Positions 5,598 to 48,028 of a stretch of 64,000 nt of DNA are shown here, piece by piece (positions within the stretch are counted from its first letter, which is position 1; every line of letters begins with the position of its first letter). Source of the DNA: Citreicoccus inhibens (GTDB lineage: Bacteria > Myxococcota > Myxococcia > Myxococcales > Myxococcaceae); assembly GCF_019039035.1 (NCBI RefSeq), contig NZ_JAHNZT010000011.1, forward strand, positions 1-64,000. The letters are read 5' to 3'. Position numbers and translations under genes: made by a program. The notes beneath the pieces are model-generated. The model saw only the letters and a program-made list of their open reading frames with translations. It was not told the origin of the DNA and did no database searches.

Positions 5598-7514
<1,917 letters not shown>

Positions 7515-42043: not shown

Positions 42044-42187
42044 CCGGACGTTGGCGCACGGACATCCCGAACAGGCCGTGGGGCGTTCCGGTTGACGGGC
42101 CGGCCGGGGTGATCATCTTTCGCCAGTCAGGTGGGGACGTCGCGCGACATGGGTCTCGCGCGTGTTGGGGGGCGGGGGAGGCCAAGC

Positions 42188-44236
42188 GTGCCGACGATGA
42201 AGCCACAGGATCTGCCGCCAGGGATGGGGCCCCGTGGAAAGAAGCCAGACAAACCCACGCCAGCGCGCGGCGGGTTCAAGTTCGGCTCGCCATTGGGCTA
42301 CATCCTGTTGCTGGTCCTGGGATTCTTGCTGTTCCGCAATGTCTTCCAGGACGCGGGCGTGCGGCGCGTGAGCTACAGCCAACTGCGCGACGCCATCGAG
42401 AACGGGCAGTTCAGCCGCGTTCAAATCTCCAACGAGTGGGTGAAGGGCTTCCTCAAGGAGAACGCGCAGCCGCCGGCTGGTGAGCAGAAGACACTGCGCT
42501 CCGAGCCGAGCGCGTTGCCGTGGATGGCCTACCGCGTCCCGGGGGATGACGAGCTCATCCCGCTGCTCGAGGAGAAGGGCATCCAGTTCGAGGCGGTGCC
42601 TCAATCCAGCTTCAGCGAGGTGCTGTGGATCTGGCTGCTGCCCATGGGCCTGCTCATCCTCTTCTGGAGCTTCATGATGCGCCGGATGACGGGCGGCATG
42701 GGCCAGGGCCCGCAGAGCGTGATGAGCTTCGGCAAGACGCGCGCGAAGGTGCAGGCCGAGTCGGACACGGGGGTGGGCTTCAAGGACGTGGCCGGCGTGG
42801 ACGAGGCGGTGGACGAACTGCGCGAGATTGTCGAGTTCCTCAAGACGCCCGAGAAGTTCCGGCGCCTGGGCGGACGCATCCCCAAGGGCGTGCTGCTGGT
42901 GGGGCCGCCGGGCACGGGCAAGACGCTGCTGGCGCGCGCGGTGGCGGGCGAGGCCGGGGTGCCGTTCTTCAGCCTCTCCGGCTCCGAGTTCGTGGAGATG
43001 TTCGTGGGCGTGGGCGCGGCGCGCGTCCGCGACCTCTTCGCGCAGGCCACCTCCAAGGCCCCCTGCATCATCTTCATCGATGAGCTGGATGCCATTGGCA
43101 AGAGCCGCAACGCGGGCATCGCGGGCGGCCATGACGAGCGCGAGCAGACGCTCAACCAGCTCCTCGCGGAGATGGACGGCTTCGACAGCCGCGCGGGCCT
43201 CATCATCCTGGCGGCCACCAACCGCCCGGAGATCCTCGACAGCGCGCTGATGCGCCCCGGACGGTTCGACCGGCAGGTGCTCGTGGACCGCCCGGACAAG
43301 CGCGGGCGCGAGCGGGTGCTGGAGATTCACTCGCGGGGCGTGAAGCTGGGGCCGGACGTGGACCTGCGCGTGATTGCCTCGCGCACGCCGGGATTCGTGG
43401 GCGCGGACCTGGCCAACGTCGTCAATGAGGCGGCGCTGCTCGCGGCCCGGCGCAACCGCGACGCGGTGATGCGCGCGGACTTCGAGGAGGCCATCGAGCG
43501 CGTGGTGGCGGGGTTGGAGAAGAAGAACCGCCGCATGAACGAGCGCGAGAAGGAGATTGTCGCGCACCACGAGGCGGGCCACGCGGTGGTGGGCTGGATG
43601 CTGCCCTACGCCGAGCGGGTGACGAAGGTCTCCATCATCCCCCGCGGACTGGCGGCGCTGGGCTACACCATGTCGTTGCCCTTGGAGGACCGCTACCTCA
43701 TGTCGCTGGAGGAGTTGCGCGACAAGATGGCGGGGATGATGGGCGGCCGGGCCGCGGAGGAACTCTTCGTGGGGGAGATCTCCACGGGCGCCTCCAATGA
43801 CTTGAAGCAGGCCACGGAGATCGCGCGAATGATGGTGCGCGACTACGGCATGAGCAGCCTGGGGCCGGTGGCGCTGGGCAGTGAGCACGGGCCGGGCTTC
43901 TTGCGCTCGGCGGGCCTGCCGGAGACGCGCTCCTACTCCGAGCAGACCGCGCGGATGATTGACGAAGAGGTCCACAAGATGGTGGCCGAGGCGCTGGAGC
44001 GCGCCCGCCATGTGCTCAACACCCACCGGGACAAGGTGCAGGCCGTGGCCGCGCGCCTGCTGGCGACGGAGGTCATCGAGGAGGACACGATGGTCACCAT
44101 CCTCGGGCCCAAGGTGGTCGCGGAGCGGGGCCTGCTGCACCCCGAGGCGCGCGCGGTCATCTCCGCCCACCCGGTGGCGCCGACCGAGCCGGAAACTCCG
44201 CCAACCCAGCACACCGATCCTCCCCTGGACGCCTGA
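42188..44236 (+). CDS. ftsH: ATP-dependent zinc metalloprotease FtsH (copy 2)
   Basis: This is a 682-residue second FtsH. A 35-residue Pro/Lys-rich cytoplasmic head precedes membrane segment 1 (about 35-52) and the second near 145-163. The AAA module has Walker A GPPGTGKT (239-246), Walker B '[10 protein letters not shown]' and '[19 protein letters not shown]'. The zinc motif HEAGH is at 461-465. GTG 42188 is preceded by GGGGGAGG at six bases, far better than upstream in-frame starts or ATG 42197. It differs from copy 1 by the longer head and a larger periplasmic segment. A possible TTGACG -35 element lies at 42092-42097. It stands upstream of grpE and htrA, a proteostasis neighbourhood. Confidence 0.94.
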
Positions 44237-44334
44237 ACGCTCGCCTCCCGTGCGGACCGCCGTCGGCTGCAACCGGCGGCGGCCTGCGGCGTCCAACAGG
44301 CGAAATTATCTTCAGGCCGAAGGGAGGAGTCGCC

Positions 44335-44580
44335 GTGGAGAACCGAATCGGCAGGAGCTACGTGGCCCGCAAGGCCCTCTTCGCCAAGGGGCTGAAGGCG
44401 GGGCGGCTCACGGTGCAAGAAATCGAGGAGGCCCTGCCCGCCGGGACGCTGACGGCGGCCGAGCGCTGGTTGCTGTACTACTCGCTGCGCGCCGCGCAGG
44501 TGGAGATCATCGACGAGGTGACGGGGCAGGTGGACCACGGGTTCATGGCCGAGTCACCCGCGGCGCCCTCCGAGCACTAG
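44335..44580 (+). CDS. Small protein resembling sigma70 region 1.1
   Basis: This is an 81-residue protein starting at GTG 44335, with AGGGAGGAG at ideal distance. Residues 11-60 ('ARKALFAKGLKAGRLTVQEI' and 'EEALPAGTLTAAERWLLYYS', then 'AAQVEIIDEV') follow the pattern of the autoinhibitory region 1.1 of primary sigma factors (helix, 'G-x-LT-x-x-EI-x-x-ALP', helices, 'I-x-I-x-DE'). No core-binding or DNA-binding sigma regions follow. It may be a stand-alone modulator that mimics region 1.1; this is inference from pattern only. It sits between ftsH2 and grpE, 68 bp before grpE. Confidence 0.7.
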   Translation: MENRIGRSYVARKALFAKGLKAGRLTVQEIEEALPAGTLTAAERWLLYYSLRAAQVEIIDEVTGQVDHGFMAESPAAPSEH

Positions 44581-44584
44581 CGCG

Positions 44585-44612
44585 TTGACATGACCGCCTC
44601 GGCGGTTAGGTT
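44585..44612 (+). promoter_or_regulatory. Probable promoter of grpE
   Basis: TTGACA (44585-44590), a perfect -35 hexamer, is followed after 16 bases by TAGGTT (44607-44612). It begins 4 bp after the preceding stop and lies 37 bp before the grpE start. The spacer contains the palindrome listed separately. Confidence 0.55.
44593..44606. promoter_or_regulatory. Palindrome in the grpE promoter spacer
   Basis: ACCGCC-TC-GGCGGT forms a perfect six-base dyad exactly between the -35 and -10 hexamers of the grpE promoter. A repressor bound here would block RNA polymerase. HrcA/CIRCE is not the protein-site pair, because the sequence is unlike CIRCE. Confidence 0.4.
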
Positions 44613-44648: not shown

Positions 44649-45251
44649 ATGACCGGCAACACGCACAACGACACGCAGACGGAGGCCGCCGAGGCCGCGA
44701 CCCCCACCTCCGAGGGTGGCCCCGCCCAGGATGGCTCGGGCAAGGAGGCCACCCCGGCCGTGGATGTGGAGAAGGCGCGCCTCCAGGCGGAGCTGGACGC
44801 CTCGCGCCGCCGCGTGGATGAGCTCGCTCGGGCCTATCAGGCCCTCAACAAGGACCGCGAGGAGTTCAAGCAGCGCCTGACCCGCGAGCGCGAGCGGATG
44901 ATTGACGTCGAGCGCGGCGACGTGGCCGTCACGCTGCTGGAGGCCATCGACGAGTTGGATCGCGCCCTGAACGCGGGCGGCGAGGACGGATCCGCGCTGG
45001 CGCAGGGCGTCCGGATGATCCGCGACAGCCTGCTGCGCAAGGTGCAGGCGGCGGGCATCGAGCGGCTCCAGGTGGTGGGGCAGCCGTACGATCCCAACCT
45101 GGCCGAGGCCGCGGACATGGAGATCACCCCCGTGCCCGAGGACGACCAGAAGGTCGTCGCCGAGGTGCGGGCCGGCTACCGCCTGAAGGACCGGATCATC
45201 CGGCCGGCTCGGGTGAAGGTGGCCAAGTACATCCCGCCCGCGAACGCCTGA
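44649..45251 (+). CDS. grpE: Nucleotide exchange factor GrpE
   Basis: This 200-residue co-chaperone releases ADP from DnaK. The first 40 residues are acidic and flexible. A long coiled-coil helix follows ('ARLQAELDASRRRVDELARA', 'REEFKQRLTRER'), then the four-helix and beta domain with 'LLEAIDELDRAL', 'AQGVRMIRDSLLRKVQAAGI' and the family C-terminus 'VVAEVRAGYRLKDRIIRPA'. Length is standard. dnaK and dnaJ are not adjacent here; htrA follows after 57 bp. It has its own probable promoter. Confidence 0.94.
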   Translation: MTGNTHNDTQTEAAEAATPTSEGGPAQDGSGKEATPAVDVEKARLQAELDASRRRVDELARAYQALNKDREEFKQRLTRERERMIDVERGDVAVTLLEAIDELDRALNAGGEDGSALAQGVRMIRDSLLRKVQAAGIERLQVVGQPYDPNLAEAADMEITPVPEDDQKVVAEVRAGYRLKDRIIRPARVKVAKYIPPANA

Positions 45252-45308
45252 GGGCGGACCCGGCGGCCGGGAAGGGCCCGGCGGTGCGCGCTGTTGGGGC
45301 GGATCGCC

Positions 45309-46844
45309 ATGGCCCGCCGTGTAAGCTCCCGCTCCGTGCACCCTCGCTTCCTTGCCGTGTGTCTCGTGCTGGCGCTCGCTCCCCTGGCGGGCGCCGCCGA
45401 GGATCCGCTGGTCCCCTGGCTTCAGGCCCGCGCGCGGGAGCACGCCACCTACTTCGGCGTCCACGCGGCGGGAGCGGACGGGCGGACGGGCGCCATGGGG
45501 CTGTGGCGGGAGCGCGCCCCGGGCTCCTCGGGCCTGCCCAACTTCGTCCCGCCCACCTCGTTGGCGCCGCTGATCCGCGCCGTCGAGGCGGGCGTGGTGA
45601 ACATCACCGCGGTGAGTCCGGGCTCGGCCCCGGGCGGGGGGATGAAGCGCTCCACGGGCTCCGGGCTGGTGCTCACGCCAGACGGGCTGGTGGTGACCAA
45701 CAACCACGTGGTGGCCAACTCCCGCGCGCCCTCCATGGGCACGATGGTGAACCCCGATGCGCCGCGCGTGGAGGTCGGGGGCCGGGAGGGCTCCACCGCC
45801 CAGCAGATCTCCGTGCGCCTGGCGGACGGCCGCGAGTTCCCCGCCGAGGTGGTGGGCCGTGACGCCTCCACCGACGTGGCGCTCCTCCGCCTGAGCGGCA
45901 CGGAGATGGACAACCTGCCGGCCGTCTACCTGGGGGACTCGGACGAGCTCCAGGTGGGGGACTGGGTGGTGGCCATCGGCAACCCGTTCGGCCTGGACCA
46001 CTCGGTGGCGCACGGGATGATCTCCGCCAAGGAGCGCGTGCTGGGCGTGGGCCAGTTCGATGACTTCATCCAGACGGACGCGCTCATCAACCCCGGCAAC
46101 TCGGGCGGCCCGCTGTTCAACATGAAGGGCGAAGTCGTGGGCGTGGCCACGGCCATCATCAGCGAGGGGCAGGGCATTGGCTTCGCGGTGCCCATCAACC
46201 TGGTGAAGGACCTGCTGCCGAACCTGCGCGAGAACGGGAAGCTGGAGCGCGGGTGGCTGGGCGTCGTCATCAACGAGGACGGTGAGAACGGCGCCCAGCG
46301 CGCGCCCATGGTCCGCGACGTGTACCGAGGCAGCCCCGCCGCGGCGGCGGGCATCCGTCCCGGGGACCGGCTGGTCGCGGTGAACGGGCGCCCCATCGGC
46401 AGCTACCTGCAACTGCTTCGCAAGGTGGCGCTGCTCGCCCCGGGCACCGAGGCGCGGCTGACGCTCCTGCGCGGCACCGGGACCCAGGACGTGACGGTGC
46501 GGCTGGTGGCGCGCCCGGCGGCGGAGGCCACCTCGGGGCTGACCAACCGGGCCAGCAGCAGCGCCAATGACGTGGGGCTCCTGCTGCGGGATCTGACGCC
46601 CGAGGTGGCGGCGCCGCTGGGGTACGAGGCCTGGACCGGGGCGCTCGTGTCTGGCGTGCTGCCGCGCAGCGCGGCGGAGCAGGCCGGGCTGCGCGCGGGC
46701 GACGTGGTGACGGAGGTGAACCGGCGCCGCGTGAAGGATGCCGCGGGAGTCCGCGCCGCGTTGGAGCGGGGCAGCGCGGGGGCCAGCATCCTCCTGCGCG
46801 TGCAGCGGGGCACGGTGCTTCAGTACATCGCCATCGCCCGCTGA
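45309..46844 (+). CDS. HtrA/DegP-type periplasmic serine protease with two PDZ domains
   Basis: This is a 511-residue exported protease-chaperone. The signal peptide ends near 'PLAGAAED'. The trypsin-like catalytic triad is visible: His133 in 'VVTNNHVVA', Asp189 in 'DASTDVALLRL' and Ser265 in 'NPGNSGGPLFN'. A stretch of about 30 residues between the His strand and the next core strand ('SMGTMVNPDAPRVEVGGREG') is longer than in the most compact HtrAs and may be a regulatory loop. PDZ1 is at about 315-405 and PDZ2 at about 420-510. The start ATG 45309 gives a normal signal peptide. It lies after grpE on the same strand, in keeping with envelope stress. Confidence 0.92.
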   Translation: MARRVSSRSVHPRFLAVCLVLALAPLAGAAEDPLVPWLQARAREHATYFGVHAAGADGRTGAMGLWRERAPGSSGLPNFVPPTSLAPLIRAVEAGVVNITAVSPGSAPGGGMKRSTGSGLVLTPDGLVVTNNHVVANSRAPSMGTMVNPDAPRVEVGGREGSTAQQISVRLADGREFPAEVVGRDASTDVALLRLSGTEMDNLPAVYLGDSDELQVGDWVVAIGNPFGLDHSVAHGMISAKERVLGVGQFDDFIQTDALINPGNSGGPLFNMKGEVVGVATAIISEGQGIGFAVPINLVKDLLPNLRENGKLERGWLGVVINEDGENGAQRAPMVRDVYRGSPAAAAGIRPGDRLVAVNGRPIGSYLQLLRKVALLAPGTEARLTLLRGTGTQDVTVRLVARPAAEATSGLTNRASSSANDVGLLLRDLTPEVAAPLGYEAWTGALVSGVLPRSAAEQAGLRAGDVVTEVNRRRVKDAAGVRAALERGSAGASILLRVQRGTVLQYIAIAR

Positions 46845-46857
46845 GCCTTGGCGGTGC

Positions 46858-47493
46858 CTAGCGGCGCAGCTGCGCGTCCTTGCCGTTGAGCCACAGGCCG
46901 AACTGCTCGCCGGTGCGGCCCTCGGTCACCAGGATGGACTCGATGCGCGCGTTGACCCCGTAGACCTTCCCGCCGCCCTTCTTGGGCAGCACCCACACGC
47001 CCTGCGGCGAGAAGACGACCTGCGCCCGAACGCCGCGCATGGAGAACATCCGGGAGAACGTCCCGCCGTTCCACATCTGCGGCGCCGTGCCGCTCACCGA
47101 CAAGAGCGGCAGCACCGGGTTTCCCTGTGCGTCCGTCTTCTTCGGCGCGCCGTGCGTGAGCGCGTACTTCCCGGCCCCGAAGAAGGGCGTGATGTTGATG
47201 AGGTACTCGTTGGTGCCGGGGTTGAAGGCGCCCGGGGACAGCATGCTGGCGTCGTCCTCGGTGACGATCATGTACAGCCGCTTGCCCTGGTACTTCTTGC
47301 GGAAGGCCTCCGCCTGCGACTTGCACTGCGGGTCCACGAGCGCGCCCTCGCACTCGCCCACGTACTTCTCAAGGAACGCGCCCAGGCCCCCCAGCGGCTC
47401 GGACTCGTCGCGCAGCTTCGCGAAGCGGGAGTCCACATCAGCCAGGGCAAGCGCGGGCAGCAGGACGGCGGCGGCAACCAGGAAGCGATTCAC
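46858..47493 (-). CDS. Secreted protein of unknown function
   Basis: This is a 211-residue protein with a clear Sec signal peptide ('FLVAAAVLLPALALA', cleavage before DVDSRF). Two cysteines near 48 and 57 of the precursor could form a disulfide. The mature part mixes helix ('LGAFLEKYVGEC') and strands ('KRLYMIVTEDD', 'GTNEYLINITPFFG', 'AQVVFSPQGVWVLP'). I recognise no family with confidence. It is convergent with htrA (13-bp gap) and divergent from the PilZ gene. Confidence 0.78.
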   Translation of the reverse strand: MNRFLVAAAVLLPALALADVDSRFAKLRDESEPLGGLGAFLEKYVGECEGALVDPQCKSQAEAFRKKYQGKRLYMIVTEDDASMLSPGAFNPGTNEYLINITPFFGAGKYALTHGAPKKTDAQGNPVLPLLSVSGTAPQMWNGGTFSRMFSMRGVRAQVVFSPQGVWVLPKKGGGKVYGVNARIESILVTEGRTGEQFGLWLNGKDAQLRR

Positions 47494-47609
47494 GGTGTTG
47501 CGACTCCAGGAAACAGGGGGTTGGGACCTCGGATGCTGCCACCCCCGGCGCCCGTCCGGCAGCCCTTTCGGGGGAGGTGAGGGCGGGTAGCGACAGGTGA
47601 ATAAATTGC

Positions 47610-47630
47610 CTACATGTGGCTACCATGTAG
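47610..47630. promoter_or_regulatory. Inverted repeat upstream of the PilZ gene
   Basis: CTACATG and CATGTAG form a perfect seven-base dyad with a seven-base spacer, 39 bp before the PilZ start, in an AT-richer patch. TTGCCT (47607) and TAGGGT (47628) overlap it and could be -35/-10 elements with a short spacer. This is a plausible operator for a dimeric regulator. Confidence 0.4.
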
Positions 47631-47668
47631 GGTGTGCCTGTCACTTCCTGTTTCTGGAGGCACCCCGC

Positions 47669-48028
47669 GTGAACGAGCGTCAGCAGGACCGCCGCACCCA
47701 CCTGCGGTTCGACAAGGTTTTCACCGTGTATCTGTCCACCCAGGACGGAATGATGCGGGGAATCGGTCGCAACATCAGTGCGCGGGGCATGTTCATCGAG
47801 GTCCGGGATTCCCTGGGCCTGGGCGAGAAGCTGAAGGTGACGTTCGCGGGCGAGGACGGCACGGAGATGACGTGCCTGTGCGAGGTGCGCTACCAGGTGG
47901 CGCTGGCCTTCGGGCGCAAGGACGGCCGCCCGGGCAGCAGCCGCGGCGTGGGCCTGCGCATCGTGGCGTACGAGACCATGGATGACGCGCCGCTGCTCCT
48001 GGTGGACCGCGAGCGCGTGATGCACTGA
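47669..48028 (+). CDS. PilZ-domain protein (myxobacterial TIGR02266-like)
   Basis: This is a 119-residue single-domain protein. The start is GTG 47669, with TGGAGG eight bases before. The N-terminal 'RRTHLRFDKVFTVYLST' includes an RxxxR-like c-di-GMP motif in modified form (RRTHLR). The second motif is seen as 'NISARGMFIE', the equivalent of D/NxSxxG. Strands 'KLKVTFAGED' and 'CEVRYQVAL' complete the barrel. It resembles the PilZ paralog group described from Myxococcus. It may bind c-di-GMP and influence motility or polysaccharide, but the partner is unknown. Confidence 0.87.
   Translation: MNERQQDRRTHLRFDKVFTVYLSTQDGMMRGIGRNISARGMFIEVRDSLGLGEKLKVTFAGEDGTEMTCLCEVRYQVALAFGRKDGRPGSSRGVGLRIVAYETMDDAPLLLVDRERVMH

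Follow-up and report, generated by a model that had tools for sequence, protein, structure and literature searches.

The R11 Locus

The window, the 64,000-nucleotide stretch of DNA that was analyzed, encodes an 81-amino-acid protein (R11) at 44335–44580 on the forward strand, of which GRLTVQEIEEALP is part. R11 is a stand-alone sigma70 region 1.1 protein. Its region 1.1 domain occupies 44371–44547 (+), corresponding to the Pfam match over residues 13–71, and contains helix 3 (residues 42–51), which has the invariant sequence AERWLLYYSL. Translation begins at a GTG codon, 5 bases downstream of the Shine-Dalgarno sequence GGGAGGAG (44322–44329, +). The relatives of R11 have AAAGGAGG or AGGAGG at the equivalent place, i.e., the same strong Shine-Dalgarno. 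Against nine full-length relatives, R11 gave dN values of 0.04–0.07 and dS values of 0.55–0.76, and a tenth, more distant relative gave values of 0.20 and 0.92, respectively (NG86); the dN/dS ratio is about 0.05–0.2, and most of the codon variation is at third positions. In most family members R11 is the best conserved protein of the locus; for M. xanthus (L033), identity to the window proteins is 95% for R11, 89% for FtsH, 75% for HtrA, and 58% for GrpE. R11 is a real gene under strong purifying selection, and a spurious open reading frame can be dismissed because of the dN/dS values, the conserved Shine-Dalgarno sequence, and synteny.

Upstream of R11 is ftsH (42131–44236), a paralog that co-occurs with R11, and downstream are grpE (44649–45251) and a gene for an HtrA/DegP-type protease with PDZ domains (45294–46844), all on the forward strand. 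A second FtsH gene in the window (5871–7406, +) has 56% identity to the FtsH adjoining R11. Beyond htrA, positions 46858–48028 contain a DUF6066 gene, which is on the minus strand, and a PilZ-domain gene; in many loci the place after htrA is taken by a relative of at least one of the two. The order FtsH–R11–(GrpE)–HtrA on one strand was found in all 70 of the loci first mapped (the window's family plus the genome_contigs set), as far as the contigs reach; no GrpE was detected in some of the metagenome-assembled genomes among these 70 loci. The gene neighborhood of R11, pointed out in a sequence-only reading of this DNA, has an old and conserved order.

The FtsH paralog is present in 101 of 103 genomes with R11, and R11 is present in 101 of 103 genomes in the reverse comparison, both as raw counts that ignore ancestry. 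R11 has no obligatory tie to FtsH, as the exceptions show: in G155, R11 is beside GrpE-HtrA with FtsH on a different contig; in G083, R11 is between MutT and HtrA with no FtsH; in G113, R11 is alone; and G006 (L147, C42) has FtsH-GrpE-HtrA with no R11 in between, a natural loss that is useful for comparison. FtsH is also kept without R11 in G164.

Two promoter-like pairs are proposed on the basis of conservation. The putative element CTGCGG-N17-TATCTT (44284–44312, +) is conserved upstream of R11, and TTGACA-N16-TAGGTT (44585–44612, +) is located between R11 and grpE. The TTGACA of the latter begins 5 bases past the R11 stop codon, is invariant in 15 myxobacterial genomes, and is followed about 16 nt on by a TAxGTT box; therefore, grpE probably has its own promoter here. 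A strict consensus promoter scan flagged neither pair. The ftsH, grpE, and htrA neighbors were the ground for the stress regulation role that was first suggested for R11, but the link is weak, given the promoter-like element that grpE seems to have for itself and the survival of R11 apart from ftsH in a few lineages.

R11 Is a Homolog of Sigma70 Region 1.1

R11 matched the PF03979 family (Sigma70_r1_1) by hmmscan over residues 13–71 with a score of 25.2 bits (E = 1.6e-5), above the gathering cutoff of 22.5 bits, and 26 of 27 R11 relatives also matched the family (E ≤ 0.1). Profile comparison by hhalign with region 1.1 of Myxococcota RpoD gave a probability of 96.7 and an E value of 4.7e-10 for a gapless alignment of 56 columns with 27% identity. 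Among PDB sequences, the R11 alignment matched SigA (7l7b, E = 6.5e-4) and, weakly, T. maritima RpoD (2k6x, E = 0.44). In whole Myxococcota genomes, the next-best matches to the R11 profile after R11 itself were long frames; 14 of these were retrieved and all 14 were RpoD, with region 1.1 and the sigma region 2 motif.

The AlphaFold (AF2) model of R11 has a mean pLDDT of 82 and a pTM of 0.68 and is composed of three helices and short strands. The top two Foldseek matches were B. subtilis SigA (9a58) and the sigma1.1 NMR structure (5mww), with probabilities of 1.00 and 0.97, respectively; their E values are weak (0.07 and 0.39) because the R11 domain is short. Structural realignment of the model gave Z scores of 8.0 for 9a58 and 7.6 for 5mww, followed by 5.8 for E. 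coli sigma70. Sequence, profile, and predicted fold together identify R11 as a stand-alone homolog of sigma70 region 1.1, which agrees with the initial description of an 81-residue region 1.1-like protein and is the outcome of two of the checks proposed for it, a family profile search and a structure prediction.

The other sigma regions were also correctly described as absent: the R11 frame consists of the region 1.1 domain alone, regions 1.2–4 of a group 1 sigma factor are not on the same chain, and grpE comes next. The same genome encodes a normal RpoD (G000 C36, L071) with its own region 1.1, which scores 84.7 bits, so R11 is an extra stand-alone copy, and a split sigma factor is excluded by the intact RpoD. 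The two domains are homologous and of equal length, but RpoD is a full sigma factor with a strongly acidic region 1.1 (net −9). R11 is a paralog of the primary-sigma region 1.1 domain that is now a separate small protein.

Searches for a mobile origin gave no plasmid match and no match in viral_contigs. A phage or plasmid origin was rejected; the sole match in the phage collection was a bacterial dnaG-rpoD contig. L125 (MT836986.1), an unverified contig titled "Bacteriophage sp.", looks bacterial: it encodes a complete sigma factor of the RpoD type together with a bacterial DnaG.

R11 Is Kept by Most of the Myxococcales

R11 was found in 103 of 195 Myxococcota genomes (E < 1e-18), all of which belong to nine families of the order Myxococcales; Myxococcota genomes outside this order gave weak matches in long frames only. 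No small stand-alone PF03979 protein scored above the cutoff in 51 Myxococcota genomes, all but one outside the Myxococcales, where every match above the cutoff was in a frame of at least 478 amino acids. Likewise, 20 genomes chosen for the absence of R11 had no stand-alone PF03979 protein above the cutoff, and the matching frames were at least 426 amino acids long. Within the family to which the window belongs, several genera have RpoD only and no R11. R11 is kept by most of the Myxococcales. A record titled Comamonas sp. KCTC 72670 (L032, BNCN01000007.1) contains a complete myxobacterial locus with the same gene order and an R11 that is 94%–95% identical, and the record is probably mislabeled.

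Loss of the Acidic Surface and Gain of an Invariant Helix 3

Ten positions that are mostly Asp or Glu in RpoD have no acidic residue in R11 when read in the ungapped R11/RpoD register (11, 14, 21, 28, 37, 42, 45, 46, 53, and 55); the R11 residues there are A, K, R, Q, G, W, or L. The net charge of the R11 core is +1 to +5 compared with −9 to −10 for RpoD region 1.1, and the acidic DNA-mimic surface that characterizes region 1.1 was not found in R11. In every member examined, the helix 1 region is basic, carrying a net charge of +4 to +8, and R12 and K13 are invariant. The C-terminal tail is acidic (net −1 to −12), although it is almost absent in L070. Longer acidic tails of 38–68 residues, with a net charge of −11 to −12, are present in L140, L060, L062, and L063.

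The helix 3 sequence AERWLLYYSL (A42–L51) is invariant in 27 of 27 aligned R11 members, although some share as little as 48% identity with the R11 encoded in the window; L140, a further relative outside the alignment, has SERWLLYFSL. Invariance all around the helix suggests that one face may pack in the core while another binds a partner, with the exposure of individual residues read from the alignment register.

Discussion

Region 1.1 of sigma70 (PF03979; PDB: 5MWW, 2K6X, and 4LLG chain F) and R11 share a sequence family, a predicted fold, and a gapless domain alignment. R11 differs in that it is free of any sigma factor, its acidic surface has been lost, helix 3 is replaced by the invariant AERWLLYYSL, and, among the genomes searched, it is limited to the Myxococcales. 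A comparable domain layout is seen in RpoE, the delta subunit of RNA polymerase in Firmicutes, in which a stand-alone sigma1.1-like domain is followed by an acidic tail (PMC7749165). Delta belongs to a different phylum and has a far longer tail (net −47). The delta family (HARE-HTH) is absent from the Pfam matches of R11, for which it should be considered that HMMER filters drop weak matches.

It was originally proposed that R11 could act on sigma as an anti-sigma factor or regulate the polymerase at its cleft, i.e., that it would behave like region 1.1 within sigma by filling the main channel of RNA polymerase or masking free sigma. Region 1.1 is described as an acidic domain that mimics downstream DNA within the RNA polymerase channel, and isolated E. 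coli region 1.1 can act in trans, with sigma70 lacking region 1.1 and with sigma38 (PMC3778932). Activity in trans on EσΔR1.1 and Eσ38, together with the same predicted fold and the ungapped 56-column alignment, is consistent with such a role for R11. However, by itself the isolated E. coli region does not antagonize RNA polymerase lacking region 1.1 (EσΔR1.1; PMC3778932), the RpoD of the same genome retains a normal region 1.1, most of the acidic positions are lost, and helix 1 is basic. A plain DNA mimic or blocker in the polymerase cleft is improbable because R11 has lost the acidic property on which mimicry depends, and we consider the proposal as a whole very unlikely. No anti-sigma domain was detected in R11, and, in contrast to what is seen for anti-sigma factors, the adjoining genes include no sigma factor. 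Pairing of R11 with the acidic N-terminal segments or region 1.1 of RpoD, by which it would antagonize RpoD, is suggested by the charge of the R11 core, which is opposite to that of the RpoD N terminus, but the reasoning is purely electrostatic and this is the reading in which we place least credence.

The change in charge could equally mean that R11 binds DNA or RNA or has a target outside transcription. A small winged-helix-like domain that contacts nucleic acid through helix 1 would fit the net charge of this region, the invariant R12 and K13, and the three helices and short strands of the model; it is an unlikely reading, given that the fold matches are to sigma1.1 with no DNA-binding domains among them and that conservation is highest in the aromatic helix 3 and not in a basic stretch. 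As an adaptor or regulator of the adjoining FtsH protease or the chaperone system, R11 might, for example, present sigma factors to FtsH. The gene order in 70/70 loci and the co-occurrence in 101/103 genomes in either direction are what would be expected of such a partner, but R11 occurs away from FtsH in G155, G113, and G083, FtsH occurs without R11 in G006 and G164, and the co-occurrence counts disregard shared ancestry and loss of the locus as a single block. We regard this role, too, as quite unlikely.

Our preferred explanation, a tentative one, is that R11 is a trans-acting factor accessory to RNA polymerase or to sigmaA. The preference arises because the layout of R11 resembles that of the delta subunit, in a different phylum. 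In Firmicutes, the sigma1.1-like N-terminal domain of delta sits on the beta-prime shelf/jaw, outside the channel, and its acidic tail competes with sigma1.1 (PMC7749165). R11 would act in trans on the transcription machinery, either on RNA polymerase or on sigmaA; it would dock via helix 3 (W45/L46/Y48/Y49), and the short acidic C-terminal tail would be a second element. Against this accessory role, the tail of R11 is far shorter than that of delta and nearly lacking in L070, and the conserved neighbors of R11 are proteostasis genes, with no transcription genes among them. A more specific form, which we think somewhat unlikely, is that R11 is a lineage-specific RNA polymerase subunit derived from sigma region 1.1, with its charge changed and a new aromatic face for binding polymerase or sigmaA; it would be delta-like but independently evolved in a Gram-negative order.

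The region 1.1 domain family is known, and a literature search of limited, mostly non-subscription coverage found no description of a stand-alone region 1.1 protein, nor of a conserved member that has this domain alone and lacks the acidic surface. As a natural region 1.1 that lacks this surface, R11 could be used to test the role of the surface. If R11 does bind polymerase, then a sigma domain would have given rise to a dedicated subunit that occurs across an order whose complex development is well known.
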